This document shows positions 25,469-43,929 of a stretch of DNA of 55,670 nt, one piece after another (within the stretch, counting starts at the first letter, position 1; each line of letters starts with the position of its first letter). Under the pieces are notes generated by a model. The model was not told the DNA's origin, made no database searches, and saw nothing but the letters and a program-made list of their open reading frames with translations. The stretch comes from Chloroflexota bacterium. Lineage in GTDB: Bacteria > Chloroflexota > Dehalococcoidia > Bin125. The position numbers were made by a program, and so were the translations under genes. The DNA is taken from the NCBI GenBank assembly GCA_028874365.1, contig JAPPJZ010000003.1:1-55670 (forward strand). The letters run 5' to 3'.

Positions 25469-25486
25469 GATGAAGTGCCAGCCGAG

Positions 25487-26968
25487 CTACGCATAGCGGA
25501 TGCGCGGATCGATGAGCGCATAGCTGATGTCGATGATGATGTTGACGACGATCACGAACAGGGCGAGGAAGAAGACCATCGTGGCAATGACCGGCGTATC
25601 GGCCTGGTAGATGCGCTGCAGCAGCGCCAGGCCGACACCGGGGATGTTGAACAACACCTCGAGGATGATGTTGCCGCCAACCAACGCAGCCACCTGCAGT
25701 CCGAACACGCTGAGCACCGGCACCAGGGCATTACGGAACGCGTGCCTTCGAATGACCTGTCGTTCGCGGAGCCCTTTCGACCATGCGGTGCGCACGTAGT
25801 CCTGTCGCAACACCTCCAGCAATTCAGAGCGGGTGATGCGCATGAGTCCTGCTCCGGCGGCTATGCCGCCGGCCACCGCGGGGATCGTATAGAGGGCGAA
25901 GAACCCCGGAACCGAGGTAAAGATGCTTCGCGCCTCCTCCTCAGCCAACGGAATCGACCACAAACCGCCTTCGAACAGCGAGCCCGGCGAGACCACGAAG
26001 ATCAGCATGGTCGCGACCCAGAACGAGGGCGCGGCGAGAGCGAAGATTGCAAAGCCGCGCAAGAGGTAGTCGGGCAGCCGGTCCTGGCGCATCGCGGAGA
26101 ACACGCCGACCGGTAGCGCAACCACGATGGCCACGATCAGCGCGTACACGTTGAGGTGGAGCGTGCGCGGGAGCGTGCGCAGGAAGATATCCATCGACGG
26201 TTCGTTCGTCTGGAACGACGGTCGGAACTTGAGCCGAATCGTGTCCCAGATGAACTCCACGTATTGAATCCCGAGCGGCTTGTCGAGCCCGAGACGATTC
26301 TTGACCGACGACTCTGTAATTTCACGGGTTGGCGCAATGATCGTGGATCCCGGCAACAATGGCGTGTCCGCGGTCAGTTCCCCGTCGGGGTTCGACGGTG
26401 TGCCGACGAGGTTGACATTCAGATAGTCCTCGGGCGTGACCCGGTTGACGTGGGCAAGCTCGTTGATGGTGGTGCTGTCACGCAGTTTCAGCGTGGTGCC
26501 GGCCTGAGCAAAGGGCTCTCCAGCGAAGGTCGCGAAGTCGACGCTCGGATTGCGCTCGATCAATAGCGCGACTCCCTGGTCGACATCTTCGGGAAGCGCA
26601 AGCCGCTCCCGTCTGGCGATGACTGACAACAACTGGCCGTCAATGACGATGATGCTGGAGCCGGGAATCAGCTCGCTGTCGCGCTTGACTCTCGGATTCA
26701 GAGCGAGAATCTCTTCTGGCGCCACTCCATAGAAGAGCGCCAGCGAGTCGACGCTGTCACCAGCCACCACGCGATGCAGTGTCCGCTCGATCTCGACCTC
26801 GCCGATGATATCCGCCGGCTGAGTCGTCGCTCCGGAGGCTTCGAGATTAGAAAGCTTGATGGTGACGTAGTCGCCAGGCAGCAGGTTCACTCCGAGGAAG
26901 AGCAGCGAAATCACCAACCACAGCGTCGGTATCACGAGCAAGAGGCGGCGGATCAGATACTTCTGCAT
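25487..26968 (-). CDS. ABC transporter permease, DppB/OppB type, with inserted LysM-like domains (cassette 1)
   Basis: A 493-residue permease. Residues 1-40 are the standard DppB start (TM1, LLPGDYVT). Residues 62-215 are an insertion not found in ordinary DppB. It contains a LysM-like unit at about 65-110 (HRVVAGDSVDSLALFYGVAPEEILALNP, ending PGSSIIV) and a degenerate second unit at about 157-213 (TTINELAHVNRVTPEDYLNVN, ending PGSTIIAP). Normal permease sequence resumes at NRLGLDKPLGIQYVEFIWD, with TM helices from about 273 and an EAA-loop segment in TRSELLEVLRQDYVRTAWSKGL. LysM normally binds peptidoglycan or chitin-type glycans outside the cell, and the loop faces outside. It lies between its lipoprotein binder and the DppC gene. 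Confidence 0.9.
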   Translation of the reverse strand: MQKYLIRRLLLVIPTLWLVISLLFLGVNLLPGDYVTIKLSNLEASGATTQPADIIGEVEIERTLHRVVAGDSVDSLALFYGVAPEEILALNPRVKRDSELIPGSSIIVIDGQLLSVIARRERLALPEDVDQGVALLIERNPSVDFATFAGEPFAQAGTTLKLRDSTTINELAHVNRVTPEDYLNVNLVGTPSNPDGELTADTPLLPGSTIIAPTREITESSVKNRLGLDKPLGIQYVEFIWDTIRLKFRPSFQTNEPSMDIFLRTLPRTLHLNVYALIVAIVVALPVGVFSAMRQDRLPDYLLRGFAIFALAAPSFWVATMLIFVVSPGSLFEGGLWSIPLAEEEARSIFTSVPGFFALYTIPAVAGGIAAGAGLMRITRSELLEVLRQDYVRTAWSKGLRERQVIRRHAFRNALVPVLSVFGLQVAALVGGNIILEVLFNIPGVGLALLQRIYQADTPVIATMVFFLALFVIVVNIIIDISYALIDPRIRYA

Positions 26969-27011
26969 CTTGCGCTCCGGCCGCTGTACGCGGCGCTGCC
27001 CTGCAACGAGC

Positions 27012-27048
27012 GCGGGGTTACGCTCTCAGGTTGAGCGGAACCCCGCGG
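27012..27048 (-). promoter_or_regulatory. Intercistronic stem-loop after binding-protein gene 1
   Basis: CGCGGGGTT (27012-27020) pairs with AACCCCGCG (27040-27048), and CGCT (27022-27025) with AGCG (27035-27038), across a 9-nt loop. It lies 26 nt after the stop of the lipoprotein gene and before the DppB gene on the minus strand. No U-tract follows. Such hairpins between a binding-protein gene and its permeases usually protect the upstream mRNA or partly attenuate transcription. Confidence 0.55.
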
Positions 27049-27073
27049 CCGAATGGTCTCGAATCCCGGTGGC

Positions 27074-29113
27074 CTAGGCCTGGAATTGCGGGTGGTTCGT
27101 GTCGAGCCAGGTCTCGTCGTGCTTGTGCGAGTCGTGCGCGAACTGCCAGGTGTTCTCGTCACGGTTGACGTACGGCCACCAGATGGTCGGCACAACGCCG
27201 TTCATCACACCGAACCAGCTGAAGATGCCGTCCAGACCGTGATCGCTGTTGGGGTACCCACCGCCTTCGTCGACGCCGAGCCCGATCCGCTGCACATTGC
27301 GCGCCATGTCGCGGCGCTTCTCCGTGTCGAGCGTGACGGTCATCTCGTCGATGATGTCTTCGACCGGCTGGTAGTTGTACTGCGTCACGTTGGAGGCGCC
27401 GCCGCGCTTGAGCGCGAGACCGAACTGCGCGGTCGGGTCGAGGTCGGCCGGTGGATTCGTCCAGGTCGGCGCGCGGCCGGGGAAGGTCTTGTTGTCGAAG
27501 CGGTCCTGCATCACCGTGTAGGGCTGCAAGTCGAGCTCGACGTTGAATCCCACCGCCTCGCTGTACATGTTGCGAGTGGTCTCCGAGACACCCGGGTATG
27601 TTGTCTCCCAAATGTCGGGGATGTAAATCGTCACCGTCCGATCGGTGTCGAAGCCTGAGGCGGCGATCAACTCACGGCAGAGCTGAATGTCGGCCTCGCG
27701 GTCGATCCGGTAGCCCGGATACTGGCGCAGCTCGTCGGCCGGGATCGTCCAGTAGGTCGAGAACCAGGGGCAGTAGTGCGTGCCGGACGGCTTCGCCGCG
27801 CCCAGATAGACCGCGTCAATCAACAGGTCGCGGTCGACCGCGACATGCATCGCGTAGGCGAAGCGCCGGTCAAGGTACGGGTTGCCCAGACCGTCGGAGC
27901 CTTCCCAGCCCGGCTCGTAGGTACCGGTCACGGTCACGATCGTGTAGCCAAATGCGCCTTCGGCGACCGGGTGGTCGGGGAAGTCGCTGGTCATTTCCTC
28001 GACCTGCACCGATGACAGCGGGAATCCGCCAATGTCGATCTGCTGGCCGCGATAAGCGGCGTCAACGGCGGTCGGGTCGGTCAGGTTGACGAAGTCGACC
28101 GCGTCGGGGTACGGCAACTGCTGACCGTCGGCCCCGTTCTTCCAGTAGTTCGGGTTGCGCTCGAGGTAGGTGCCGATGTCAGGGTCGTAGCTGATCGGGA
28201 TGAACGGCCCGGAACCTGATGAGAGCTCGATGTTGGCCGTCTCGTCACGCCAGCGGCTCCCGAACTCCTGGATGCCTTCGGGCGAAGTAAACCACGAGAA
28301 CGGCCGCAAGATCGTGCCACCCAGGTAGGTAGAGTCGGGGCCGTCAGTCCTGGCGATGAAGGTCTGCTCGTCGGGAGCTTCCTTGGTCGCGGTCTTGCGG
28401 AAGGCGTCCTGACCACGGAACCGGGCGTCGGGGTTGCCGTCGGCATCGAGTGCAGCGATTTGGCGGTCGAAGTTGATGTCGATGTCCTGTGCGGTGACCA
28501 GTCGACCACCTTCGGTCGGATACTGGTCCCACCAACTCGCTCCGCGGTCGATATTGAAGATGTAGGTCTCGCCGTCCGGCTGCTCCGGCAGGGACGCGAT
28601 ATCCGACTCCATGATCCCCTTCTCTTTGTTTGCCCAGCGGATGAGGTAGTTCATGTAGAACCCCATCCAGTAGACGGTGGGACCAAAGACACCGCGGTGC
28701 GGGTCGAAGAAATCGTGGGTGGCAGCCGGCGTGGAGAACTTCAGCGTGCCGCCGTATGTGCGTAGCGGAGCGGCAGCCTGCTGCTGTTGTTGCTGCTGCG
28801 CCTGGGCGACAGTCTGCTCTTCCTGCTGCTCAGCCTGCTGAGCGGCCTGGTCGGCTTGCTGCTCTTGCTGCTCCTGCTGCATGGCCTGCTGCTGTTGCTG
28901 CATCGCCTGCTGCTGTTGCTGCATCGCCTGCTGTTGCTGTTGCTGCTGTTGCCGTGTCTGAGCGACGGCCTGTCCGTCGTCATCGTCATCGTCACCGCAG
29001 CCGACGAGCGCGAGACCGGCTGCGCCGACTCCGGCTCGGCCTGATGCGCGCAAGAGAGCACGCCGACTCAAACGATTGCGCTGCATGCGCTGCCAATAGT
29101 TGCGATCGCTCAT
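27074..29113 (-). CDS. ABC substrate-binding lipoprotein, family 5, no. 1
   Basis: A 679-residue extracytoplasmic solute-binding protein of the oligopeptide (SBP_bac_5) type. Start MSDRNYWQ has AAGGAG upstream. The leader has a twin-arginine motif (SRRALLRASG), a hydrophobic stretch and lipobox LVGC, so it is probably Tat-exported and lipidated. After Cys-Gly come six Asp, then about 65 residues almost entirely Gln with Ala, Met and Glu, likely a flexible tether. The binding domain starts near TYGGTLKFSTPA and includes FDPHRGVFGPT. First gene of cassette 1 (binder, DppB, DppC). The ligand is unknown; family 5 members carry peptides, nickel or glycans. Confidence 0.9.
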   Translation of the reverse strand: MSDRNYWQRMQRNRLSRRALLRASGRAGVGAAGLALVGCGDDDDDDGQAVAQTRQQQQQQQQAMQQQQQAMQQQQQAMQQEQQEQQADQAAQQAEQQEEQTVAQAQQQQQQQAAAPLRTYGGTLKFSTPAATHDFFDPHRGVFGPTVYWMGFYMNYLIRWANKEKGIMESDIASLPEQPDGETYIFNIDRGASWWDQYPTEGGRLVTAQDIDINFDRQIAALDADGNPDARFRGQDAFRKTATKEAPDEQTFIARTDGPDSTYLGGTILRPFSWFTSPEGIQEFGSRWRDETANIELSSGSGPFIPISYDPDIGTYLERNPNYWKNGADGQQLPYPDAVDFVNLTDPTAVDAAYRGQQIDIGGFPLSSVQVEEMTSDFPDHPVAEGAFGYTIVTVTGTYEPGWEGSDGLGNPYLDRRFAYAMHVAVDRDLLIDAVYLGAAKPSGTHYCPWFSTYWTIPADELRQYPGYRIDREADIQLCRELIAASGFDTDRTVTIYIPDIWETTYPGVSETTRNMYSEAVGFNVELDLQPYTVMQDRFDNKTFPGRAPTWTNPPADLDPTAQFGLALKRGGASNVTQYNYQPVEDIIDEMTVTLDTEKRRDMARNVQRIGLGVDEGGGYPNSDHGLDGIFSWFGVMNGVVPTIWWPYVNRDENTWQFAHDSHKHDETWLDTNHPQFQA

Positions 29114-29162
29114 CGGTCTCACTCCTTTTCAGCGCTTCTGGAGACGCGCCGATAGTCGGATA

Positions 29163-29191
29163 ATTCTAGCCCAACCGATGCGTAGTGTCTC
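29163..29191 (-). promoter_or_regulatory. Putative sigma-70-type promoter of cassette 1
   Basis: On the minus strand, -35 GAGACA (29186-29191) and -10 TAGAAT (29163-29168, 5 of 6 to TATAAT) are separated by exactly 17 bp. The -10 lies 50 nt upstream of the binding-protein start at 29113, within the 141-bp gap after the upstream DppC gene. This suggests cassette 1 can be transcribed on its own. Confidence 0.5.
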
Positions 29192-29254
29192 ATTCGCTCA
29201 ACTCCATTGGGCCGAGCGACCAGATAGAACCACTGCGACGCGTCGAGAGTCGGC

Positions 29255-30499
29255 CTAGCGGGTGCCTCGAAGGCGAGGGTCAAAGACGTCTCGCAGGGCG
29301 TCTCCCAATACGTTGAAGCCGAAGACCAGGCTGGTCAGGGCGAGACCGGCGAAGAGCGATGTCCACGGCGACTGGACGATGAATTGGCGTCCGTCAGCGA
29401 TCATCTTGCCCCAGGACACATCCAGGGTGCCCAGCCCGAGGAAGCTCAGCGCCGCCTCGGCAAGGATAAAAGCGCCAATCGTGATCGAGAAGATCACGAT
29501 TAGCGGAGCAACGATGTTGGGCAGGATGTGCAGCATCATGATCCGCGCGTTGGTGGCGCCAACCGTGCGTGCTGCTTCGACGAATGGCATCTCGCGCAGA
29601 GCGATCACGGCACCGCGCACAATTCGCTGTACCGGCGCGATCGCCAGAACAGAGAGCGCGAGTGTCACCCAGATTGCCGAGGGCTCGGTGACCGAGCGCA
29701 GCAGCAGCAGCAGCACGATCGGCGGGAACGAGAGCAGCGCGTCGACCAGGCGGCTGATCGCCAAGTCGATGTTGCCGCCTAGCCCTCCGGCGACCAGACC
29801 GAGAGCGGTTCCGGCGACGACGCCGATCAGGGTCGCGAAGAAGCCGATGTAGAGCGATAGCCTCGCGCCTTCGGTGACCCGCGAGAACAGGTCGTGTCCG
29901 GCCCGGTCGGTGCCAAACCAATGCTTGGCCGACGGTCCCTGAAGCGAGGCGGTCGTCAGCGGCGTGTTGGTTCCTGTCGCGAGCAGGTCGTCGACATCGG
30001 TGATCGTGCCATTGGCGATTTCGATCTGGGCGGGATCGATGTCCTCTGCCAGGTGAGTCAGCAACGTGCCGGTCTCAATCAGGCCTTCGACGTAGGCGAG
30101 CATGTCGTCCAGTACGCCGGACTCTTGGGCCAGCTCTCCGTAGACCTCCGGGGCGAGCAACAGCTCCCGCAGCCTCGCGTCGGAGATGTCGGCCGGCTCA
30201 CCGTCCAGGGCGTTGGCCATCTTGTCGTCGGCGAAGCTGGGATTGGCGATCTTGAAGACATCTTGCGAGTCGTAGCGCCCGATTCCGAGCCAACCGCCGC
30301 CCGAGCCGACCGTGCCGACGGCGATGATCGACCAGACAACGACCAACACGAGCCCGGCCGCGCCCAAGGGTTTGGTCCGGAAGAAGGAAAGCAGCGCGCT
30401 GCTGACCAGTTGGAGCGTGGTGCGCTCTTCAACGCGCAGACCCTGAGCCTGCGCGAACTCTTCCAGTTCCCTGGCGGTCGTCTGACGTTCGTCGCTCAT
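29255..30499 (-). CDS. ABC transporter permease, DppC/OppC type, with enlarged loop (cassette 2)
   Basis: A 414-residue permease paralogous to the one at 24236-25468. Start is the ATG of MSDERQTTARELEEFAQ with GGGAG upstream; the much longer open frame covers the DppB tail in another frame and is rejected. Order: cytoplasmic head, TM1 (VWSIIAVGTVGSGGGWLGIGRYDSQDVF), an extracytoplasmic segment of about 120 residues rich in acidic residues and Leu, then HWFGTDRAGHDLFSRVTEGARLS and the TM core. The EAA motif is EAARTVGATNARIMMLHILPN. The loop diverges from cassette 1 much more than the membrane core does. Confidence 0.9.
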   Translation of the reverse strand: MSDERQTTARELEEFAQAQGLRVEERTTLQLVSSALLSFFRTKPLGAAGLVLVVVWSIIAVGTVGSGGGWLGIGRYDSQDVFKIANPSFADDKMANALDGEPADISDARLRELLLAPEVYGELAQESGVLDDMLAYVEGLIETGTLLTHLAEDIDPAQIEIANGTITDVDDLLATGTNTPLTTASLQGPSAKHWFGTDRAGHDLFSRVTEGARLSLYIGFFATLIGVVAGTALGLVAGGLGGNIDLAISRLVDALLSFPPIVLLLLLRSVTEPSAIWVTLALSVLAIAPVQRIVRGAVIALREMPFVEAARTVGATNARIMMLHILPNIVAPLIVIFSITIGAFILAEAALSFLGLGTLDVSWGKMIADGRQFIVQSPWTSLFAGLALTSLVFGFNVLGDALRDVFDPRLRGTR

Positions 30500-30522
30500 A
30501 GTGCGTCTCCCGCTCGACCCGG

Positions 30523-32148
30523 TTACGTGTATCGAATACGCGGATCGATCACCGCGTAGGAGATGTCGATGATGATGTTGACGACAATGATGAAGAGCGC
30601 GAAGAAGAACACCATCGTCTGGACGACCGGCAGGTCCGCCTGGTTGATCCGCTGAATGAGCAGCAGGCCGATGCCGGGGATGTTGAAGAGCAGCTCGAGG
30701 ATGATGTTGCCCCCGACGAGCGCAGCGATCTGAAGGCCGAGCACGCTCATCACGTTGACCAGCGCGTTGCGCATCGCATGGCGTCGGATGACCGTGCGCT
30801 CGCGCAGACCCTTGGACCATGCGGTCCGCACGTAGTCCTGGCGCAGGACCTCGAGCAGCTCGGACCTCGTGATGCGCATCAGGCCCGCTCCCGCCGCAAT
30901 CCCTCCGGCGATGGCCGGAATCGAATAGAGCGCCAGCGCGCCGGTGAAGGAGCTAAAGACCGAACGCGCCTCCTCGGACGTCAGCGGGATCGACCAGATG
31001 CCGCTCTCCGAGATACCGCCGGGTGTCACGACGAAGATCAGCATCGTCGCAATCCAGAACGAGGGTGCCGCCAGTGCCAGGATGGCGAAGCCGCGCAGCG
31101 CGTAGTCGAGCGGTCGGTCCTGCCGCATGGCCGAGAGGATCCCGACCGGCAACGCGATGATCAGCGCCACGATCAACGAATACACATTGAGGTGCAGCGT
31201 GCGGGGCAGGGCGCGGAGGAAGATGTCGAGTGAACCCTCCTGGGTCTGGAACGACGGACGGAATTTGAGCCGCACCGTCTCCCAGAGGAAATCGATGTAT
31301 TGCGTGCCCAGCGGCTTGTCGATCCCAAGCCGATTCCGGATGTTGGCCTCGGTGATCTTGGTCGTCGGTGTGACGATCTTGTCCGAGGGGATCACGATCT
31401 CCTTGCCCGCCTCGAGTGGTTCAGCCGCATCGATTCCGCGGTTCGCATCGGTCACGTCATCGACGTCGCGCCCGAAGGCGACCGCAATCCCTTCGAGCGT
31501 GTCGCCCTCCTCGGCGATCACCAGCGAGGTTGGCACCAACTGGGTATCGGCAGTCAAGTTGCCATCGGGATTGCTCGCGCTGCCGGTCGGATTGACGGCC
31601 AGGATGTCGCCGGCCTCAATACGGTTGACGTGCGCCAACTCCTCCAACGTGAGGCTGGTGCGGATCGTCAGGATCGTTCCAGCCTCCGCGTATGGTTTCC
31701 CCTGATACAAGGGAAAGTCGATATCAGGATTGCGATCGATCAGCAGCTGAACGCCCTGCTGGGCTTCTTCAGGCAGTGATACCTTCTCCGCGACCGCAAT
31801 CGTCTCCAGCAACCGGCCAGGGATCACCGCCACTCTGGTACCGGGCCGTAAATCGGCCGAGGTATCGAGGTCGGGATTCGTCGCGAGGAGCTCCGAGACC
31901 GTGGTGCTGTTGTCCGCGGCGATCGACTCCAGAGTGTCGCCAGAGATCACACGGTGCAACGTCTCCTCGACTTCGATGTAACCAGTAATCTCTGATTCTC
32001 GCTGCTCTGCACCCTGGTTCTCCAGGTTCGAGAGCTTGCGCGTGACGAAGTCGCCCGGCAGGGCGCGAAGCGCAAGGAAGAGCAGCGAGACAACCAACCA
32101 CAGCGTCGGGATCACCAGGAGTATGCGCTGGAGAAGGTATCGCTGCAT
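30523..32148 (-). CDS. ABC transporter permease, DppB/OppB type, with three LysM-like units (cassette 2)
   Basis: A 541-residue DppB-type permease, about 200 residues longer than usual. The excess lies between TM1 (1-32) and the resumption NRLGIDKPLGTQYIDFLWE near 272. The insertion carries LysM-like unit 1 at about 64-110 (HRVISGDTLESIAADNSTTVSELLATNP), unit 2 at about 157-212 (LTLEELAHVNRIEAGDILAVNP), and unit 3 at about 209-256 (EEGDTLEGIAVAFGRDVDDVTDAN, ending AGKEIVIP). Cassette 1's homologue lacks unit 3. The C-terminal half has the usual helices and cytoplasmic loop. It follows lipoprotein 2 by 56 nt and precedes its DppC by 23 nt. Confidence 0.9.
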   Translation of the reverse strand: MQRYLLQRILLVIPTLWLVVSLLFLALRALPGDFVTRKLSNLENQGAEQRESEITGYIEVEETLHRVISGDTLESIAADNSTTVSELLATNPDLDTSADLRPGTRVAVIPGRLLETIAVAEKVSLPEEAQQGVQLLIDRNPDIDFPLYQGKPYAEAGTILTIRTSLTLEELAHVNRIEAGDILAVNPTGSASNPDGNLTADTQLVPTSLVIAEEGDTLEGIAVAFGRDVDDVTDANRGIDAAEPLEAGKEIVIPSDKIVTPTTKITEANIRNRLGIDKPLGTQYIDFLWETVRLKFRPSFQTQEGSLDIFLRALPRTLHLNVYSLIVALIIALPVGILSAMRQDRPLDYALRGFAILALAAPSFWIATMLIFVVTPGGISESGIWSIPLTSEEARSVFSSFTGALALYSIPAIAGGIAAGAGLMRITRSELLEVLRQDYVRTAWSKGLRERTVIRRHAMRNALVNVMSVLGLQIAALVGGNIILELLFNIPGIGLLLIQRINQADLPVVQTMVFFFALFIIVVNIIIDISYAVIDPRIRYT

Positions 32149-32204
32149 CGCTGCTCCCGATCAGTTGACTACAAGCGCCACTGAGGTTCGTGCGAAAGTG
32201 CACA

Positions 32205-34220
32205 TTAGGCGGGGTAATCCGGGTGGTTCAGGTCGAGCCACGCGTCGTCGTACCGGTGTGACGCGTGGGCGAACTGCAAGGTGTCTTCGGGGCGCTGGAC
32301 GTACGGCCACCAGAGCGCCGGCGAGATGCCGTTCATCACGGCGGGGGCGAAGCCAAGACCCTCGACGCCGTGATCCGGGTGAGTGCCGAGCAAGATGCGC
32401 TGCGCCTCGAAGGCCATGTCTCGGCGCTGCTCCTGGTCGAGCGTCACTCGCATCGTGTTAGCAATGTCGGTCATCGGCTGGAAGTCATAGGACAGGTTGT
32501 TGGTCGCGCCGCCCGGCACGAGGTTCTGCAGATATGACGTCGTCGGGTCGAGGTCATCCGGCGGGTTGGTCCACTGCGGTCCGCCGCCGGGGTATGTCTT
32601 CGAGACCCAACGCTGCAGCAGCACGGTATAGGGCTGGATGTTGAACTCGATCTCGATCCCCAGCGCCTCCTCGTACATGTTCTTCTCGGTCTCGAGGATG
32701 CCCTGGTACGTCTGCTCCCAAATGTCGGGCGCATAGAGGATCATCTTGCGATCCTTGTCGTAGCCCGATGCGTCGAGAGCCGCGCGAGCATCGGCGATGT
32801 CCGCATCGCGGTCGGGCCGATAGCCCGGTGTCGAGAGCAGTTCCTCCTCGGGGATGGCCCAGTACTTGTTAAACCAGGGCGTGTGCTCCTGACCACTGGG
32901 CTTGCCCGACCCGAGGTAGACCGCGTCGATCATCAGGTAGCGATCGACGGCCAGGTGCAGCGCGTAGCAGAATCGGCGATCGAGGTAAGGATTGCCTAGT
33001 CCGTCTTCACCGGGCCAGTCCGGGTTGTAGTTGAAGATGCCGGTGATGATTGTGAAGCCGAATGCGATCTGACCCTGCGGGTGATCGGGGAAATCGGCGC
33101 CGATCGATTCCGCCTGCAAGCTCGACAGCGGGAAGCCGCCAACGTCGATCTCTCCGTTGCGGTAGGCCGTTTCGACGACCGTTGGATCGTCCATACTCGC
33201 AATGCCAATGCCATCCATGTAAGGCAGCGGCTGGCCGTCGGCGCCCATCTTCCAGTAGTCCTCGTTGCGGACCATGTCCACGCCGATGTCGGGGTCATAG
33301 AACGTGGGAATGTAGGGGCCCGTCCCGGACGACAACTCAACGTTGGTCGCCTCGTCGCGCCAGCGATCGCCGAACTCACTGATCGCTTCCGGCGAAGTGA
33401 TCCACGAGAACGGACGCAAGACCGGGCTGCCCAGATAAGTGGCGTCGATGCCATCGGTCTTGGCGATGAATGTCACGTCGTCGGGAGTCTCCATCGCCGC
33501 CGTTTTACGAAATGCCGACGAACCAAGGTAGGTACCGTCCTCGGAACCGCTCGCGTCGACCGCGTCGATCTGACGCTGGAAGTTGGCCTCGATGTCCTGG
33601 GCCGTAACGAGGCGTCCGCCCTCGGTTGGGTACTGATCCCAGTACCGCGCCCCGCGGTCAATCGAGAAGATGTAGGTTTCCGCGTCCGGCGTCTCTGGAA
33701 GCGACGCCACATCGGCCTCGAGGATGCCCTGTTCCTTGTTGCGCCAGCGGATGAGGTAGTTCATGTAGAACCCCATCCAGAACTGGGTAGGCCCGAACAC
33801 GGCTCGGTGAGGATCGAAGTAGTCGTGCGTGCGGGCAGGACTCGAGAAGCGCAATGTGCCGCCACGGGTGATGTTCGACACCGCCGCCTGTTGCTGTTGA
33901 TCGGCGTCGTCAGCCGTTTGCTCCTGCTGATCGGCCTGCTCCGCCTGTTGCGTCGCGGCCGATTCCTGTTGCGCCTGCTGGCCCTGCTGCGCGGCCTGCT
34001 GCTGCATCGCCTGCTGTTGTTGTTGCTGCGCGGCCTGCTGCTGCATCGCCTGCTGTTGTTGCTGCGCGGTTTGCGCGACGCTGTCCTCGTCGTCGTCGCC
34101 TCCGCAGCCAATCAACGCCAGACCGGCGGCGCCCACGCCCGCCCGACCCGACGCTCGTAGCAGAGCGCGCCGGCTCATCCGATTCCGCCTCATGCGTTGC
34201 CAGTAGTTGCGTTCAGCCAT
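32205..34220 (-). CDS. ABC substrate-binding lipoprotein, family 5, no. 2
   Basis: A 671-residue binding protein directly upstream of cassette 2 permeases and therefore their likely partner. Start MAERNYWQ has GGAG upstream; an extended frame to 34445 overlaps the neighbouring gene and is not used. The twin-arginine leader (SRRALLRASG) ends in lipobox LIGC, then GGDDDED and a Gln-rich tether (about 50-125) with repeated AMQQQAAQQ units. The binding domain runs from RGGTLRFSSPARTHDYFDPHRAVFGPT to the C-terminus (HPDYPA). It shares the domain organisation of binding proteins 1, 4 and 5. Confidence 0.9.
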   Translation of the reverse strand: MAERNYWQRMRRNRMSRRALLRASGRAGVGAAGLALIGCGGDDDEDSVAQTAQQQQQAMQQQAAQQQQQQAMQQQAAQQGQQAQQESAATQQAEQADQQEQTADDADQQQQAAVSNITRGGTLRFSSPARTHDYFDPHRAVFGPTQFWMGFYMNYLIRWRNKEQGILEADVASLPETPDAETYIFSIDRGARYWDQYPTEGGRLVTAQDIEANFQRQIDAVDASGSEDGTYLGSSAFRKTAAMETPDDVTFIAKTDGIDATYLGSPVLRPFSWITSPEAISEFGDRWRDEATNVELSSGTGPYIPTFYDPDIGVDMVRNEDYWKMGADGQPLPYMDGIGIASMDDPTVVETAYRNGEIDVGGFPLSSLQAESIGADFPDHPQGQIAFGFTIITGIFNYNPDWPGEDGLGNPYLDRRFCYALHLAVDRYLMIDAVYLGSGKPSGQEHTPWFNKYWAIPEEELLSTPGYRPDRDADIADARAALDASGYDKDRKMILYAPDIWEQTYQGILETEKNMYEEALGIEIEFNIQPYTVLLQRWVSKTYPGGGPQWTNPPDDLDPTTSYLQNLVPGGATNNLSYDFQPMTDIANTMRVTLDQEQRRDMAFEAQRILLGTHPDHGVEGLGFAPAVMNGISPALWWPYVQRPEDTLQFAHASHRYDDAWLDLNHPDYPA

Positions 34221-34325
34221 TTCATGCTCCATCAAGTCAGACATGCGTCGCGCGCGGTTGCGACTTGGCAGAGTGTAAGCGAATTGACGTTGCGGGTGTC
34301 GAGTCCGCAACAGACCAGAGCCGCA

Positions 34326-34368
34326 TCGCCCGGCGCGAACTCCACGTCCGCGGTCGCGCCGGGCGATC
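34326..34368 (-). promoter_or_regulatory. Perfect 14-bp stem-loop after binding-protein gene 3
   Basis: ATCGCCCGGCGCGA (34326-34339) and TCGCGCCGGGCGAT (34355-34368) form a perfect 14-bp stem with a 15-nt loop, 6 nt after the stop of the gene at 34375-36402. There is no U-tract on the minus strand, so it is more likely an mRNA-stabilising or Rho-assisted end than an intrinsic terminator. A candidate promoter for the next gene (TACACT at 34272-34277) lies just downstream. Confidence 0.6.
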
Positions 34369-34374
34369 TCTGGG

Positions 34375-36402
34375 CTACGCCGGGTAGTCCTCGTGGGCGG
34401 TGTCGAGCCACAGCTCCTCGACGATCTTGTGGCCCTGGTGCGCAAACTGGTAGCCGTCGGGAATCACGTGGTACCACGGCCACGCGGCCTCGTTCGAGAC
34501 CGGGTTCATCACGCCCAGACCCGGCGAGAGCGATTCCCAGCCGTAGTCGGGGTGAATACCCAACTGGAGTTGCACCATCTCGTGTCCGAGTGCGCCCTTG
34601 GCCTCGAGGTCGAGCGTGACCTTCATCTCCTCGGCGATCTCGGTCACGCGTGGGTTCTCGTAGCTGTAGAAGTTCGCCGATGCCCCGGGCACTCGACCGT
34701 TGAGCCAGTAGCTGGTCGGGTCGAGGTCGGACGGCGGGTTGGTCCAACAGGGGACCTGACCCTGGAACGTGCCGTCGACCAACCGCTGCAACAGCACGGT
34801 GTACGGGTCGATGCCGATCTCGATGCCGACCCCCATCGCCGACTCATACATGTTCTTTTGGGTCTCGACGATGCCGGGATAGCGCTGCTCCCACACATCG
34901 GGCGCGAACAGGCCGATGGTGCGCCCCTCATCGCGGAACCCGCTGGCGTCCATGAGCTCGTTGACCAGCTGTAGCTCAGCATCGCGATCCGGTCGGAAGC
35001 CGGGGATCTGGGCCATCTCTTCCTGGCTGGGCGACCAGAATGTCGAGAACCAGGGAATTTCTTCCAACACCGATGGCTTGGCCGAACCCAGGTAGACGGT
35101 GTCGATCATCAGGTACCGGTCGGTCGCCACGTGGAACGCGGCCGCGACCCGCCGATCCAGCCAGGGGTTGCCCAGCCCGTCTTCGCCCGGCCAATCGGGG
35201 TTGTAGTTGGTGCGAATCATGATCGTGAATCCGCCGCCGACCGTGTTGCGCTGCATCTGTGGGAAGTCGTTGAGCAGCGACTCCACGCGGCTGATGTTCA
35301 GCCAGGCGCCGTCCAGCTCCTTCGAGCGAACCGCGGTCTCAATCGCCGTTTCGTCGAAGAGGTTGTAGTACTCCATCTTGTCGACATACGGCAACTGCTG
35401 GCCCCACTGGTCGTCCTTCCAGTAGTTCGGGTTGCGGTTGGCGATGAACACCTCGGTCGGCTCATAGCTCTCGGCGATGAACGGGCCGGAGCCGGCGACG
35501 CGCAGGGTGGTCGGGTCGTCGCGCCAGACGTCCGACTCGGTGCCCCACTCTCGGATCCCTTCGGGCGCGGCCATCCATCCGAACGGGCGCAGGAACGTTG
35601 CCGACAGGTACGTCGAGTCGATGCCCTCCGAAGTCGTTCGCAAAGTGAGATCGTCTACCGCTTCGGCCGATGCGATCTTGCGCCAACTTGATAGTCCGAG
35701 GAATGTGCCGTCCTCGGCGCCGGTCGAGTCGACGCCGGCCGTGTTGCGCTCGACGTTGACGACGATGTCCTCGGCCGTGATGTTGCGCCCGCCCTCGGTC
35801 GGATAGGCGTCGTGCCAGGCGGCCCGGGGGTTGATGTTGAAGACGTAGGTCGTCGGATCCGGGATCTCCGGCAGATCGGAGATGTCGGCCTCCATTTCCG
35901 ACTTCTCCTTGTTCTTCCAGCGGATCAGGTTGTTGTAGAGCATCGAGTGCATGAACTGGGTCGGCCCGAACACGCCGCGGTGCGGATCCCAGTAGTCGTG
36001 CGTCTCAATCGTCGACGCGCGGCGCATCGTGCCGCCATAGGTCGGAATCCCGCTCTCAGGGACCTCAGCCGCAGCCTGTTGCTGTTGCTGCTCGTCGGCG
36101 TCGGCAACCGCCTGCTGCTCTTGTTGATCAGCTTGCTGCGCCGCCTGATCGGCCGCCTGCTGCTGTTGTTGCTGCTGCATGGCCTGCTGCTGCTGTTGCT
36201 GCTGGCCCTGCTGCTCCATCGCCTGCTGTTGCTGCTGCTGTTGCTGTCGAACCTGGGCAACACCGTCGTCATCGTCGTCGTCGCCGCAACCGACCAGCGC
36301 GAGGCCCGCCGCCCCTACTCCAGCCCGCCCCGAAGCTCGCAAGAGGGCACGCCGACTCATTCGGTTGCGCCGCATGCGTTGCCAGTAGTTTCGCTCGCTC
36401 AT
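34375..36402 (-). CDS. ABC substrate-binding lipoprotein, family 5, no. 3 (divergent)
   Basis: A 675-residue binding protein with the shared leader (MSERNYWQ, SRRALLRASG, lipobox LVGC, six Asp) and the longest Gln tract of the set (about 50-115). It differs most in the mature domain: HSMLYNNLIRWKNKEK replaces the usual WMGFYMNYLIRW, and the ligand-facing middle third is diverged. This suggests a different ligand but use of the same permeases. AAGGAG precedes the ATG. No permease genes directly follow; a stem-loop separates it from binding protein 2. Confidence 0.9.
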   Translation of the reverse strand: MSERNYWQRMRRNRMSRRALLRASGRAGVGAAGLALVGCGDDDDDDGVAQVRQQQQQQQQAMEQQGQQQQQQQAMQQQQQQQAADQAAQQADQQEQQAVADADEQQQQQAAAEVPESGIPTYGGTMRRASTIETHDYWDPHRGVFGPTQFMHSMLYNNLIRWKNKEKSEMEADISDLPEIPDPTTYVFNINPRAAWHDAYPTEGGRNITAEDIVVNVERNTAGVDSTGAEDGTFLGLSSWRKIASAEAVDDLTLRTTSEGIDSTYLSATFLRPFGWMAAPEGIREWGTESDVWRDDPTTLRVAGSGPFIAESYEPTEVFIANRNPNYWKDDQWGQQLPYVDKMEYYNLFDETAIETAVRSKELDGAWLNISRVESLLNDFPQMQRNTVGGGFTIMIRTNYNPDWPGEDGLGNPWLDRRVAAAFHVATDRYLMIDTVYLGSAKPSVLEEIPWFSTFWSPSQEEMAQIPGFRPDRDAELQLVNELMDASGFRDEGRTIGLFAPDVWEQRYPGIVETQKNMYESAMGVGIEIGIDPYTVLLQRLVDGTFQGQVPCWTNPPSDLDPTSYWLNGRVPGASANFYSYENPRVTEIAEEMKVTLDLEAKGALGHEMVQLQLGIHPDYGWESLSPGLGVMNPVSNEAAWPWYHVIPDGYQFAHQGHKIVEELWLDTAHEDYPA

Positions 36403-36518
36403 CTGCCCGCTCCTTTACTTGTGGTGTCGGCAGGAGATTCGCGAAGTGTAAGCGCGGATACACCCTACGCACCAGCGATACAACCGAATGTCGAAACATC
36501 CGTGGGAAGGAACAAGCA

Positions 36519-36552
36519 GGCGGCCCCCGATTCGAGTCGATAGCGGGCCGCC
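36519..36552 (-). promoter_or_regulatory. Stem-loop after binding-protein gene 4
   Basis: GGCGGCCC-CC-G (36519-36529, two-base bulge) pairs with CGGGCCGCC (36544-36552) around a 14-nt loop, 23 nt after the stop of the gene at 36575-38587. There is no U-tract. Same position relative to the gene as the hairpins after binding proteins 1 and 3, but unrelated in sequence. Confidence 0.45.
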
Positions 36553-36574
36553 GAAGGTTGCGCCAGGTAAGGGA

Positions 36575-38587
36575 CTAGGCCGGGTAGTCGGGGTGGTTTA
36601 AGTCGATCCAGGTCTCGTCGTAGCGATGGCTGGCGTGAGCGAACTGCAGGGTGTCCTCGCTGTGGTGGACGAACGGCCACCACAGCACCGGCGAGATACC
36701 GTTCATCACACCGGGGATCGTGGTGATTCCGTCCAGACCGTGATCGGGGTGGGTGCCAAGCAGCAGGCGCTGGGCGTCTTGGGCCATCCCCCAACGCTCT
36801 TCGCGGTCGAGGGTGACGCGCATCTTGTACGCGATCTCGGCCATTGGCGGGTAGTCGTAAGACAGTGTGTTGACCGACCCTTCCGGGGTGAAGAAGTCGT
36901 TGTAGGGCGCAGTCGGGTCGAGTTCGGCGGGCGGGTTGCCCCACTGCGGTCCGCTGCCGGGGTAGGTGCCGTCGACGAAGCGCTGCAGGATGACGGTGTA
37001 CGGCTGCACATCGAACTCGACCTCAAGGTCGAGCGCGTTGCGGTACATGCCGACTTCGGTTTCGAGTACGCCGGGATAGGATGCTTCCCAAAGGTCCGGC
37101 GCGATCATGCGCAGGCCGCGGCTCTTGTCGTAGCCGGAGGCTTCGAGCAGTGCCCGCGCTTCGGCGATGTCGAGGTCGCGGTCGGGGCGGAAGCCGGGGG
37201 TTTGCAGCAGTTCTTCCTCCGGGAGCGCCCAGTACGAGCTGTACCACGGGGTGTCGTGCAGACCGGTCGGCTTGCCTGAACCGAGGTAGACCGTGTCGAT
37301 CATCAGGTACGGGTCAACGGCCATGCCGAGCGCCTTGGCGAAACGTCGGTCGACCCAAGGGTTGCCGAGGCCGTCCTCACCGGGCCAGTCGGCGTTGTAG
37401 TTGACCAGCGTGATAATCGTAAAGCCGAAGGCGATTTGTCCATAGTTGTGGTCGGGGAAGTCTTCGGCGATGCCGTCGGCTTGCAGGGTGGTCAGCGGGA
37501 AGCGCCCGTTGAGGATTTCCTTGCTGCGGTAGGCGGCGTCGACTGTGGTGGGATCCTCCATGTTGGCCAGCGTGACCTCGTCGTAGTAGGGCAGCGGCTG
37601 GCCGTCAACGCCCATTTTCCAGTAGTTGGGGTTGCGCGACATGCCGATCCCGATATCGGGGTCATAGCTGTGGGGGATGAACGGGCCGGTGCCGCTGGAC
37701 AGTTCGAGGTTGCCGGCTTCGTCGCGCCAGCGGTCGCCGAATTCCGAGATCGCTTCGGGCGAGGTGATCCAACTGAAGGGGCGCAGCGGGACACCGAGCC
37801 ACGTGGCGTCGGGCCCGTCGGTCTTGGCGATCCAGGTCTCGTCGTCAGGCACGTCCATCGAGGCGGTGCGGCGGAACGCGCCGGCGGAGAGGTAGGTGCC
37901 GTCGTCGGCGCCCGTGGCGTCTTTGGCCTCGATCTGGCGCTCGTAGTTGACGCGGATGTCTTCGGAGGTCACCAACCGACCGCCTTCGGTCGGATATTGG
38001 TCCCAGAAACGGGCGCCCTGATCGATCTTGAAGATGTAGGTCTCGTCGTCGGGGATTTCTGGCAGCGAGGCGATGTCGGGCTCGGCGATGTCCTGTTCCT
38101 TGTTGCGGTAGCGGATGAGGTAGTTCATGTAGAACCCCATCCAGAACTGCGTCGGACCGAACACCCCGCGGCCGGGATCGAAATAGTCGTGCGTCGCTGC
38201 CGGGGTCGAGAAGGTCAGGTTGCCGCCGCGCACGATCTCCGCGACGGCGGCTTGCTGTTGCTCCTCGGCATCGGCAGCGGACTGCTCCTGTTGGTCGGCC
38301 TGCCCAGCCTGCGATTCCGCAGCGGCCTCCTGTTGCTCCTGACCGCCCTGTTGTTGCATGGCTTGTTGCTGTTGGGCTTGCCCGCCCTGTTGCTGCATCG
38401 CCTGCTGTTGCTGCTGTTGTTGCGCGGCCGCCTGTGCAGCCGACTGCTGGCCGTCGTCGTCATCGTCGCCGCAGCCGACGAGGGCCAATCCCGCTGCGCC
38501 GACCCCGGCCCGACCGGAAGCTCGCAACAAGGCGCGTCGGCTCATCTGCTTGCGCCGCATTCGCTGCCAGTAGTTTCGCTCTGCCAT
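36575..38587 (-). CDS. ABC substrate-binding lipoprotein, family 5, no. 4
   Basis: A 670-residue paralogue. The start is the ATG of MAERNYWQ behind GGAGAGG; ten upstream codons are open but unsupported. The leader (SRRALLRASG) ends in lipobox LVGC, then GDDDDDG and a Gln/Ala-rich tether (about 50-125). The binding domain runs from RGGNLTFSTPAATHDYFDPGRGVFGPT to HPDYPA and is close to numbers 2 and 5. It is one of three binding proteins in this run with no dedicated permeases, so it probably feeds cassette 2 or a transporter elsewhere. Confidence 0.9.
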   Translation of the reverse strand: MAERNYWQRMRRKQMSRRALLRASGRAGVGAAGLALVGCGDDDDDGQQSAAQAAAQQQQQQQAMQQQGGQAQQQQAMQQQGGQEQQEAAAESQAGQADQQEQSAADAEEQQQAAVAEIVRGGNLTFSTPAATHDYFDPGRGVFGPTQFWMGFYMNYLIRYRNKEQDIAEPDIASLPEIPDDETYIFKIDQGARFWDQYPTEGGRLVTSEDIRVNYERQIEAKDATGADDGTYLSAGAFRRTASMDVPDDETWIAKTDGPDATWLGVPLRPFSWITSPEAISEFGDRWRDEAGNLELSSGTGPFIPHSYDPDIGIGMSRNPNYWKMGVDGQPLPYYDEVTLANMEDPTTVDAAYRSKEILNGRFPLTTLQADGIAEDFPDHNYGQIAFGFTIITLVNYNADWPGEDGLGNPWVDRRFAKALGMAVDPYLMIDTVYLGSGKPTGLHDTPWYSSYWALPEEELLQTPGFRPDRDLDIAEARALLEASGYDKSRGLRMIAPDLWEASYPGVLETEVGMYRNALDLEVEFDVQPYTVILQRFVDGTYPGSGPQWGNPPAELDPTAPYNDFFTPEGSVNTLSYDYPPMAEIAYKMRVTLDREERWGMAQDAQRLLLGTHPDHGLDGITTIPGVMNGISPVLWWPFVHHSEDTLQFAHASHRYDETWIDLNHPDYPA

Positions 38588-38678
38588 GGGACCTCTCCTC
38601 GTGTTCGATTCGACCAACCGTCAACTGCAGAATGCTAGGGATATTGGAACGGCTTCGTCGGCGAACAGCACCGAATGC

Positions 38679-40700
38679 CTAGGTCGGGTAGTCGGGATGG
38701 ATCACGTCGAGCCAGGTGTCGTCGTGGCGGTGCGAGTCGTGGGCGAACTGGAGTGAATCCTCGCCGCGATGGACGAACGGCCACCACACTGCCGGTGCGA
38801 TTCCGTTCATGACGCCGGGTGTTGGTGAGATGCCGTCAAGACCGTGGTCGGGGTGCGTGCCCAGAGCGATGCGCTGCGCCTCATGGGCCAGGCCGCGGCG
38901 GGTCTCCTGGTCGACCGTGGTGCGCATCAACTGCACGATCTCTGCCATCGGCTCGTAGTCGTAGTGGAAGTAGTTCCAACTGCCGCCGGGGATGAAGCGG
39001 TTGTGGTAGGCGGTTGTGGGATCGAGCTCGATCGGGGCGTTGGACCATTGTGGTCCCGAGCCCGGGTAACTGCCGTCGATCAATCGTTGCAGGATGACCG
39101 GGAACGGCTCCATCTGGAACTGCACCTCGATGCCCAATGCCTCGGTGTACATGGCGCGCTCGGTCTCGAGGACGCCCGGATATGTGACCTCCCAGAACTC
39201 GGGGGCAATGAGTTTGACCGGACGCTCGATGTCGTAGCCGGATGCGTCGAGCAGTGCTCGAGCCTCTTCGATGTCGGTTTCTCGGTCGGGTCGGAAACCG
39301 GGGACGGTCAGCAGTTCATCCTCGGGGATCGCCCAGTAGCTGTTGTACCAGGGCGTGTCCTCCTGGCCCGTGGGCTTGGCCGAACCGAGGTAGACGGTGT
39401 CGATCATCAGATAGCGATCGACGGCCACGTGCATCGCCTGGCAAAAGCGGCGATCGAGGTAGGGGTTGCCCAGCCCGTCCCAGCCGGGCCAATCGCGGTT
39501 GAAGTTGAACCAGCCGGTGATGATCGGGTAGCCGAAGGGCACGCTGCCGGTCGGATGGTCGGGGAAGTCGGACGAGATGGACTCCACCTGAATCGAGGTG
39601 AGCGGAAAGCCGCCGATCGAGATTTCGCGGCCGCGATAGGCCGTCTCGATCGCGGTGGGATCCTGCATGCTGGCGAACGTCACTTGTTCGAAGTACGGCA
39701 GCGGCAGACCATCGACGCCCAGTTTCCAGAATCCTGGATTGCGTTCGAGTTCGATCCCGATGTCAGGGTCGTACGAGCGCGGGATTGTCATGCCGGTGCC
39801 GCTGGAGAGCTCGATGTTGGTCGGATCGTCCCGCCAGCGGTCGCCGAACGCGGCGATCGCTTCGGGCGAGGTGATCCAACCGAACGGTCCCAGGGGAACG
39901 CCCAACCAGGTGGCGTCGGGACCGTCGGTGCGGGCGATGAATGTCAGGTCGTCGGGCGTGTCCATCGATGCCGTCTTGGCGTAGGAATCACGATGCGGGA
40001 AGGTACCGTCCTCGGCGCCGGTCGCATCTCGGCCGTCGATGTGGCGCTGGAAGTTGAGGCGAATGTCCTCCGATGTGACCGCTCGCCCGCCTTCGGTGGG
40101 GAACCGGTCCCAGAAGCGCGCGCCCTGATCTACACGGAACAGATAGGTCTCTTCATCGGGTGTCTCGGGGAGGCTGCAGATGTCCGCCTCCATGACCGCC
40201 TGCGCCTTGTTGCGCCAGCGAATGGTGTTGTTCATGTAGAACCCCATCCAGTACTGGGTCGTGCCGAACACGGCCCGATGGGGATCGAAGTAGTCATGCG
40301 CGTGGGCGGGAGTGGAGAGGCGTAGGTCACCGCCACGCACGACCTGGGTGACGGCAACCTGCTCTTGCTGCGGCTGGGCAGACTGCGGATCCTGCTCCAG
40401 AGCATTCTGTTGATCGGCCGCAGCCTGTTGCTGGCGCTCGACCTGGTCTGCCTGCTGTTCCGCCTGCTGTTGCTGCTGTTGCGAGGTCGGGCCGTCCGGT
40501 TGTCGAACTCGCGGGCGCGGGGCGGCGGCCTGCTGCGCTTCGGACTGGACGACAACGAGCTCGTCGTTGTCATCGTCGTCGCCGCAACCGACCAAGGCCA
40601 GGCCGGCAACGCCTACGCCTGCACGTCCAGCCGCCCGCAGCAGCGCACGGCGACGCAGGCGTTTGGTGTTCAGCCGCTGCCAGTAGTTGCGATCGTTCAT
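38679..40700 (-). CDS. ABC substrate-binding lipoprotein, family 5, no. 5
   Basis: A 673-residue paralogue and the promoter-proximal gene of the whole minus-strand transporter run. Start is the ATG of MNDRNYWQ with GGAG upstream; the 42-codon upstream extension overlaps the divergent methyltransferase and is rejected. Its leader is the most diverged (LRRRALLRAAG), but keeps two Arg and lipobox LVGC, followed by GDDDDNDE. The tether is mixed (Gln, Ala, Pro, Arg, Glu) instead of nearly pure Gln. The binding domain has AHDYFDPHRAVFGTT and ends HPDYPT. Confidence 0.9.
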   Translation of the reverse strand: MNDRNYWQRLNTKRLRRRALLRAAGRAGVGVAGLALVGCGDDDDNDELVVVQSEAQQAAAPRPRVRQPDGPTSQQQQQQAEQQADQVERQQQAAADQQNALEQDPQSAQPQQEQVAVTQVVRGGDLRLSTPAHAHDYFDPHRAVFGTTQYWMGFYMNNTIRWRNKAQAVMEADICSLPETPDEETYLFRVDQGARFWDRFPTEGGRAVTSEDIRLNFQRHIDGRDATGAEDGTFPHRDSYAKTASMDTPDDLTFIARTDGPDATWLGVPLGPFGWITSPEAIAAFGDRWRDDPTNIELSSGTGMTIPRSYDPDIGIELERNPGFWKLGVDGLPLPYFEQVTFASMQDPTAIETAYRGREISIGGFPLTSIQVESISSDFPDHPTGSVPFGYPIITGWFNFNRDWPGWDGLGNPYLDRRFCQAMHVAVDRYLMIDTVYLGSAKPTGQEDTPWYNSYWAIPEDELLTVPGFRPDRETDIEEARALLDASGYDIERPVKLIAPEFWEVTYPGVLETERAMYTEALGIEVQFQMEPFPVILQRLIDGSYPGSGPQWSNAPIELDPTTAYHNRFIPGGSWNYFHYDYEPMAEIVQLMRTTVDQETRRGLAHEAQRIALGTHPDHGLDGISPTPGVMNGIAPAVWWPFVHRGEDSLQFAHDSHRHDDTWLDVIHPDYPT

Positions 40701-42110: not shown

Positions 42111-42934
42111 CCGGAGCGGTCCCACTTGAAAGTGAGGATCGAGAGACCGAGGCCGGCGACGATCCACACGCCCAGCACAATGGCGGCGAGTTCGAGCTGC
42201 CAGCTCATGCCGGGTTCGGCGAACTTGTAGGCGTCGGGCAGGAAGACCGAGCGCAACCCCTGGGCCAGCCAGCGCAAGGGGAAGACGCCGGCGACCCACT
42301 GGAGCCAGGTAGGCAGCGAGGCGAGCGTGAAGAACACGCCCGAGATGAACTGCAGGATGATGAACGGGGCCTGAATCACCGCAGGCGCGGCGTTGGCGGA
42401 GGGAATGATCTTGGTGATCGCGATGCCCAGCACACAGCCGGCCGGGACGCCGAGCAGGATGATCCAGATCAGGGTCAGCCAGCCCTGGGCGTCCGGCAGC
42501 TCGACGCCGTAGGCGACGACGCCGAGGATGATCATGATTATCAGTTGCAGGATCGTGTAGGCCAACGCCGTGCCGACCAGGCCCATGAAGAACGAGGCCT
42601 TGGGCAATGGGGTTGCGGCCAGTTGCTTGAGCGTGCCGTCGAACTGCTGGATCGAGAGCGACGTGCCCAACAGGTTGAAGGACGTGCCGAAGATCGCCAC
42701 GGCGACGATCCCGGCGACGAAGTACTGGCTGAACTTGACGACCGGGACGTGTCCTTCGGCCTCCGGGGGAATGCCGATTTCAAAGGTCAGCAGCGACGAG
42801 AAGATGACGAGGAACATGATCGGGAAGGCGACGACGAAGAAGAGCGCTGCCGGCTGGCGATAGATCGTCTTGAGGTTGAGCAACATGTAGAAGAAGCCGA
42901 GGCGCAGCGTGCGCGCGATGTCTGCGGTGTTCAT
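42107..42934 (-). CDS. ABC-2 type transporter permease
   Basis: A 275-residue six-helix ABC-2 membrane subunit. The start is the ATG of MNTADIARTLRLGFFYMLLNLKTIYRQPAALFFVVAFPIMFL, overlapping the ATPase stop (ATGA); the longer frame through the ATPase gene is rejected. Family features are the FDGTLKQLAATPLPKASFF cytoplasmic segment and the C-terminal LPTWLQWVAGVFPLRWLAQGLR. With the next gene it forms an exporter of drug or lipid/polysaccharide type. The substrate is unknown. Confidence 0.88.
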   Translation of the reverse strand: MNTADIARTLRLGFFYMLLNLKTIYRQPAALFFVVAFPIMFLVIFSSLLTFEIGIPPEAEGHVPVVKFSQYFVAGIVAVAIFGTSFNLLGTSLSIQQFDGTLKQLAATPLPKASFFMGLVGTALAYTILQLIIMIILGVVAYGVELPDAQGWLTLIWIILLGVPAGCVLGIAITKIIPSANAAPAVIQAPFIILQFISGVFFTLASLPTWLQWVAGVFPLRWLAQGLRSVFLPDAYKFAEPGMSWQLELAAIVLGVWIVAGLGLSILTFKWDRSG

Positions 42935-43866: not shown

Positions 43867-43929
43867 GGGTGGCAGGTTACGCGAGCGGTTCGGGCGAGCG
43901 CGGTTTCCGACGCCGGGCGAGAATATTGC

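Follow-up and report, generated by a model that had tools for sequence, protein, structure and literature searches.

The peptide importers DppABCDF and OppABCDF of Escherichia coli combine a binding protein (binder) of the OppA fold with an SBP_bac_5 domain, the DppB/DppC permeases, and a pair of DppD- and DppF-type ATPases carrying the oligo_HPY domain. The system considered here is built of the same components and occupies positions 24236–40700, minus strand throughout, of a 55,670-nt stretch (the window), which is contig C82, at its full length, of a draft genome of a Chloroflexota bacterium from the class Dehalococcoidia (3.12 Mb, 82 contigs, 96.1% complete, 2.31% contaminated). It comprises five lipoproteins with an SBP_bac_5 domain together with two DppB/DppC pairs (Table 1), and differs from the E. 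coli systems in that the ATPase genes lie outside the operon, with one pair per 18 permease pairs of the genome, in that LysM modules are present on the two window DppB, and in that the binders are twin-arginine translocation (Tat) lipoproteins on Gln-rich tethers. As no oligo_HPY ATPase is encoded on this contig, and the pair is found on contig C55, we do not claim a complete operon of the Opp/Dpp form.

Sharing of an ATPase by several importers has been described in other families. The orphan, distantly encoded ATPases MsmX and MsmK energise several CUT1 sugar permeases without ATPases of their own, and, according to that paper, as of 2020 such sharing had been reported only in CUT1 importers (PMC7658222). 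The present system is similar in that the ATPase gene is distant from several permease operons lacking one (18 pairs here), and different in that MsmX and MsmK are MalK-like, whereas here we infer sharing for DppD and DppF of the oligo_HPY type, with best matches among OppD/OppF-type proteins. By gene content, the window system works like the multitask-ATPase systems and is no member of the CUT1/MsmX group. In Staphylococcus aureus, one ATPase, FhuC, energises at least four importers of iron compounds (PMC10147376); unlike the pair discussed here, it serves iron importers and, as stated in the parts of the paper covered, is encoded within the fhuCBG operon together with two permeases. The five Pseudomonas aeruginosa binders DppA1–A5, having differing specificities, serve one dipeptide transporter, DppBCDF (PMC4206461), but this is one complete BCDF operon, and the sections consulted report no ATPase sharing across permeases, LysM modules, or common leader. 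In the one literature library searched for shared ATPases of peptide importers, which does not show absence in print, the FhuC paper was the closest match, and the examined parts of the SAR202 literature contain no description of this uptake system. Hence, while ATPase sharing in CUT1 and iron importers is already known, the proposed shared-motor arrangement in peptide-type importers appears to be new.

We suggest that the locus probably belongs to a modular uptake system of the Opp/Dpp type, in which binders and channels have been multiplied around one shared DppD/DppF motor, with the window unit docked to the cell wall. If true, the numbers of binders and channels in these uncultured marine bacteria would be no count of complete transporters, most peptide-type uptake would have one ATPase pair as its single control point, and the peptide/nickel importer family would join those with ATPase sharing.

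Thirty-one SBP_bac_5 loci, 48 BPD_transp_1 domains, 40 ABC_tran matches, and three oligo_HPY matches have been identified in the genome. None of the 18 Dpp-type permease pairs (18 DppB and 18 DppC, classed by us from the C-terminus and position) has an ABC_tran match within 7 kb, the nearest one being at least 7.3 kb away, and eight pairs are on contigs without any. The sole complete ATPase pair of the Opp/Dpp type, consisting of neighbouring OppD/DppD-type and OppF/DppF-type genes on C55, stands alone at a remote housekeeping site, between lepA and thrS (both named from our reading of the translations). One stand-alone motor pair for 18 permease pairs points to a single motor as the probable power source of almost all of them. 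The earlier note on this DNA, made from the window, had placed a common ATPase elsewhere and proposed to locate dppD/dppF-like genes; the gene content, with this one pair found, supports it. Its treatment of the locus as a unit needs widening, as the five binders are five of 28 with the same leader genome-wide, and no ATPase accompanies a further 16 permease pairs. An ATPase just beyond a miscalled border was rejected, as the only ABC ATPase of the contig belongs to an ABC-2 exporter. An ATPase on C14 close to other permeases was rejected as a Dpp motor, being of the PstB type.

The position of the ATPase pair is conserved. Among 16 further lepA-bearing stretches with such a pair, both lepA and thrS flank it in 14 (12 from the genus and two from elsewhere in the family, each of these from a different genus), and lepA alone in two, which terminate at a contig end; no binder or permease was detected with hidden Markov models (HMMs) in the fetched flanks of the pair, either in the studied genome or in the 16 stretches. 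Three genomes (G003, G012, G018) were left out of this survey, no ATPase pair being matched in them, and one family member, G016, differs: its lone pair is not next to lepA, and it has B-C-D-F runs at two places besides a C-D-F run truncated by the contig end. In all 15 genomes of the genus, the number of SBP_bac_5 is 15–36, while that of oligo_HPY never exceeds three (three in 12 genomes, two in one, one in two), and the three genomes having fewer than three are split into 170–470 contigs. By contrast, G026, G037, and G022 from the same class retain A-B-C-D-F operons. At the level of the phylum (151 genomes; SBP counts are first-look candidates, 12 per genome scored), at least 15 candidates are present in 35 genomes, and seven of these, the studied one included, have at most five oligo_HPY, hence the decoupling of binders and ATPases recurs.

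Some individual genomes deserve mention. A more extreme imbalance is seen in the 4.4-Mb genome G054, with 199 first-look SBP_bac_5 candidates, only 12 of them scored, and four oligo_HPY. G037 has at least 36 binders and two oligo_HPY ATPases, and on three of its contigs, C47, C39, and C33 (L126, L127, L128), four SBP_bac_5 each are located within 13–17 kb, with no permease found by HMMs.

Alternatively, several ATPases, that is, the stand-alone DppD+DppF pair, a lone OppD-type gene (C9:48357; L032 6283–7278), and a NikD-NikE fusion, could divide the orphan permeases among them, without any single motor. All these genes do exist, and three oligo_HPY are retained in the majority of the genus genomes, as counted above, but the fusion, located on C43, scoring above both curated cut-offs and being the other ATPase that adjoins a peptide/nickel-type pair, has its own permeases, and contig C9 contains neither a second oligo_HPY nor a BPD_transp_1 permease. 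We regard such a division of labor as unlikely. The C9 gene adjoins an apparent DNA polymerase III delta-like gene, and a third oligo_HPY recurs in most genomes of the genus.

The second part of the argument concerns the leader of the binders. All five window binders score 94–112 bits with PF00496 (cut-off 32.4 bits), and in all five, as had been claimed for these family 5 proteins, a common Tat-lipoprotein leader can be read, with the pattern M-x-(E/D)-R-N-Y-W-Q-R ... RRALLRA(S/A)GRAGVG(A/V)AGLAL(V/I)GCG(D/G)DDD; the leader of binder 1, beginning with MNDRNYWQRL, is the most diverged of the five. Genome-wide, an alignable leader precedes 28 of the 31 SBP_bac_5 loci, with the twin arginines and lipobox (R17, R18, and C39) invariant in all 28, and Trp at –32 from the Cys in 25. 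The remaining three have other, apparently Sec-type leaders, two of them with a lipobox and one unmatched by the lipobox pattern. The window tethers extend 80–84 residues past the Cys, by a rule that counts the Asp run, and are 30–50% Gln; hence they are Gln-rich, as described previously, but slightly longer than the 70 residues given as their upper limit. Since both Gln codons occur in the tethers (683 CAG, 256 CAA), the tether is no simple CAG repeat. Lipoproteins of S. aureus are anchored more tightly with Asp at +2 and neighboring positions, and those found released have Gly or Ser at +2 (PMC5727369); the analogy is only partial, since the Asp run of the present leaders comes after Gly at +2.

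Among the five window binders, identity is 0.71–0.95 for the leaders and 0.46–0.70 for the mature domains, with the leader value higher in all ten pairs, so the earlier statement that the mature domains are less alike is borne out. The comparison of divergence that had been proposed there holds for the entire genome as well: over 378 pairs, mean identity is 0.695 for the leaders and 0.233 for the mature domains (jackknife errors 0.033 and 0.012), and the leader is higher in each of the 378.

One could suppose that this leader is an ordinary Tat lipoprotein signal, alike in every Tat lipoprotein of the genome. Indeed, the core SRRxLLRxxxxAGVGAAGLALVGC fits the general Tat and lipobox plan, and is matched in part by a hydrolase-like protein on C78 and an M23-like protein on C68 (names from our own reading), but neither of these proteins has the N-Y-W block or the Asp run. 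The leader profile retrieves from the genome the 28 SBPs (weakest E value 3.0e-17), followed by an SBP-like protein on C18 (7.5e-15), and then drops sharply to proteins without the N-Y-W block (next value 1.8e-8). Together with the Sec-type leaders of the three other SBP_bac_5 proteins, this makes an ordinary signal improbable. The C18 protein (L068, C18:7707), a 696-residue frame that combines the leader core with an SBP-like body, was not reported by PF00496 and is probably a diverged 32nd binder. At E 1e-10, the leader profile matches all 20 genomes of the family and one of 21 other members of the class (G037, with 18 copies), and a wider profile matches two of the 151 phylum genomes, the studied one and G172. 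The binders of G037 and L092 have a common Y-W at the same spacing before RR, the G037 binders being devoid of the Asp run and the Gln tether.

The uniform leader might also be a functionless by-product of recent duplication or gene conversion. Codon identity at residues shared between leaders is 0.406 genome-wide, which exceeds the value obtained by shuffling within the leader (0.354, standard deviation 0.005; 0.406 is reached in none of 200 permutations), so that some common ancestry shows, but falls below 0.428 expected from the codon usage of the mature domains. Of 300 leader codons compared among the five window genes, 107 match, with 111.9 expected, one window pair with 95% identical leaders has just 10 of 33 codons in common, and codon identity of at least 0.6 is observed in only eight of the 378 pairs. 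Synonymous sites of the leader are, therefore, nearly saturated, apart from a slight remaining similarity of codons at individual positions, and protein-level constraint is likelier than recent duplication. We consider the duplication explanation very unlikely in general, and reject it, as well as gene conversion, for the window leaders, where the codon counts contradict it; conservation at the RNA level is rejected given the same saturation. Judging by these comparisons, the leader is conserved as protein, and would provide a clean handle on the extent to which a signal peptide may act as a family-specific address, with residues held and codons randomized.

Swapping of leaders between paralogues was not supported as a general process: in the closest locus, L076, the best match of the own leader is the orthologue in five genes out of five; in L083 and L085 the best leader match is often a paralogue. 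A separate observation concerns the window binder at 36578–38620: compared to L076 and L077, its mature part is 92–98% identical at the DNA level, and most of the leader and tether 70–88%, with a step near residue 120. This step may reflect an exchange of the binding domain by recombination at the junction of the tether and mature domain.

The proposed mechanism includes three steps. Each binder, carrying the common Tat-lipoprotein leader with its recognizable motifs, would be exported and anchored by the lipidated Cys, with the Asp run and Gln-rich tether holding it off the membrane. The five OppA-fold binders, each with its own range of small peptides or peptide-like solutes, would then hand their ligands over to either of the two DppB/DppC channels, whose DppB would be docked to peptidoglycan by LysM of the first outer loop. 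Finally, in what is the best supported step, the single lepA–thrS DppD+DppF heterodimer would power the window channels and the other 16 orphan pairs. The lineage would have multiplied binders and channels around one motor rather than copied whole operons, and the uniformity of the leader would be due to its being read, as protein, in a single step of export or recognition.

Tat proofreading chaperones can recognize a conserved segment located before the twin arginines. A bolder version of the above scheme, which we offer tentatively, is a plug-in platform. Here the lepA–thrS DppD/DppF pair would power some 18 channels of the peptide type, and the 38-residue N-Y-W...SRR leader, together with the Asp run and Gln tether, would serve as an address at the protein level. 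Its reader would be a dedicated factor handling only these binders, such as a variant Tat receptor or a proofreading chaperone of the Tat pathway. In such a case any new binding domain joined to the leader would become part of the platform, and motor sharing among peptide importers would be accompanied by a class-specific Tat address.

LysM is present in two of the 18 DppB, exactly both window copies, which exceed the Pfam cut-off of 20.9 bits (Table 1), and in none of the 16 others; a related locus, L088, also has LysM. In the insert of the first DppB, two LysM are recognized by Pfam, and up to four beta-alpha-alpha-beta units can be discerned in the structural model by our reading. The insert model (residues 51–260; predicted local distance difference test score, pLDDT, 70–91 by block) matches the LysM structures Ecp6 (E 4.6e-4) and 5ylg (template modeling score 0.88 by target length, E 0.14). 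The modeled membrane part matches E. coli DppB, but the confidence there is poor (mean pLDDT 62.6, predicted template modeling score 0.42), so only the insert is usable. Four genes of the genome contain the penicillin-binding protein (PBP) transpeptidase domain PF00905, indicating peptidoglycan. The permeases had been called wall-associated in the earlier note, and these data support it: the window DppB would be docked to the wall through LysM, and LysM within a permease loop would directly fix an importer to it. In the one literature library searched, no report of LysM with Dpp permeases was found, which does not show absence in print.

The mature domain of binder 2 was modeled with AlphaFold2 (pLDDT 79), and its first structural match is OppA (1ola, E 5.7e-28), further matches being DppA, MppA, and glutathione- and opine-binding proteins alike; a profile search also yields OppA and DppA. 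Given the mature identity of 46–70%, it is plausible that the five binders have different specificities.

The EAA loop of the permease contacts the ATPase. In the 18 orphan DppB, identity of this loop is 0.607, compared to 0.380 elsewhere in the domain (153 pairs), and in seven DppB with own ATPases (five from G026, one each from G037 and G022), 0.459 compared to 0.365 (21 pairs). The loop excess of the orphan DppB over these controls is 0.133 (bootstrap 0.055–0.222), which, for a small control set, lends indirect support to one common partner, as loop uniformity would be its expected trace on the DppB side. That binders and permeases are scavenging or sensing surface proteins, whose ATPases were lost as transport was no longer needed, is highly improbable, for while binders far outnumber ATPases here and in six other genomes of the phylum sample, the permease frames are intact, the domain of the orphan DppB is better conserved in its docking loop than outside it, which is unexpected if no ATPase docks, and conservation of the ATPase pair extends to other genera.

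Several points weigh against the shared motor and the protein-level leader. The loop excess in DppC is not significant (0.029, bootstrap –0.045 to 0.118; 18 vs. six), and the dedicated control set is small (seven DppB, six DppC) and comes from other genomes. The lone OppD-type ATPase on C9 could share the work. The draft is 96% complete, in 82 contigs, and an unassembled ATPase is possible, but 18 such pairs beside assembled permeases hardly so. With each of the five window binders, all NCBIfam models stay below their cut-offs. Finally, between orthologues (39 of 50 gene–locus combinations retained, best match at mature identity of at least 0.72) the leader is no more conserved than the mature domain, 0.858 vs. 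0.850, with codon identity of 0.459 in the leader and 0.645 in the mature domain, the leader codons being the more diverged. Our reading is that each leader site may vary freely within a narrow set of residues and is barred outside it, while the mature domains diverge without such a floor. On the whole, the observation of the earlier note is confirmed and enlarged from the locus to the genome, and its interpretation is supported in part, as regards the shared motor and wall docking.

Relatives of the window DppB, with 59–95% identity over at least 489 of 541 residues, were found in 16 loci (L076–L091) titled as metagenome-assembled genomes of Dehalococcoidia, Chloroflexi, or Chloroflexota; one of them, L084 (MPNM01 bin125), is listed among the Chloroflexi bins from Aplysina aerophoba, a sponge (PMC5649159). 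Two whole permease pairs are present in nine loci (L076, L077, L079–L081, L083–L085, L087), and in all nine the binder array recurs around both pairs, the number of binders varying locally.

In the direction of transcription, the order of genes in the window is binder-binder-binder-binder-B-C-binder-B-C, with spacing of 18–172 bases or a 4-base overlap. The earlier description of two DppB/DppC pairs without DppD/DppF stands for the window, but its locus started at 27074, and the second pair (24236–26968) lies below this position. The best NCBIfam matches of the window permeases are the Opp/Nik/Dpp B and C models, all under the equivalog cut-offs.

Table 1. Genes of the uptake locus and the exporter ATPase of the same contig (positions in the window).
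Feature	Coordinates	Strand	Evidence and remarks
Binder 1, first of the five to be transcribed, SBP_bac_5 Tat lipoprotein	38679..40700	-	PF00496 94.3 bits
Binder 2, SBP_bac_5 Tat lipoprotein	36575..38587	-	PF00496 101.8 bits; AlphaFold2 model of mature domain
Binder 3, SBP_bac_5 Tat lipoprotein	34375..36402	-	PF00496 103.0 bits
Binder 4, SBP_bac_5 Tat lipoprotein	32205..34220	-	PF00496 112.4 bits; start placed at MAERNYW from the leader
DppB-type permease with ~200-residue extracytoplasmic LysM insert	30523..32148	-	PF00528 132.3 bits; LysM 65.5 bits, two stretches
DppC-type permease, 4-base overlap with DppB stop, start codon uncertain	29255..30526	-	PF00528 87.8 bits; EAA loop
Binder 5, SBP_bac_5 Tat lipoprotein, between both permease pairs	27074..29113	-	PF00496 101.7 bits
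Second DppB-type permease, one LysM by Pfam	25487..26968	-	PF00528 132.1 bits; LysM 28.7 bits
Second DppC-type permease	24236..25468	-	PF00528 96.5 bits
ABC-2 exporter ATPase, outside the uptake system	42931..43899	-	PF00005 99.5 bits; adjoins ABC2_membrane permease 42107–43108

Scans of the window with Rfam and for tRNAs yielded nothing beyond two tRNA-Ser genes, and the promoter scan was at the chance level (two found, 2.9 expected). Terminator-like sites number 19, compared to 9.6 in shuffles, and are mostly located within genes. Both window DppC have an extra segment of approximately 100 residues following the first hydrophobic stretch, with no Pfam match.

The last permease gene is closely followed, without a change of strand, by a CoA-transferase III gene with two domain matches (19420–22062) and an acyl-CoA dehydrogenase gene (22109–23422). 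An acyl-CoA dehydrogenase is also present downstream in five of the 16 related loci (L076, L077, L081, L088, L090), many others ending too early. This may indicate a possible link of the uptake locus with acyl-CoA metabolism, and maybe a clue to the ligand.

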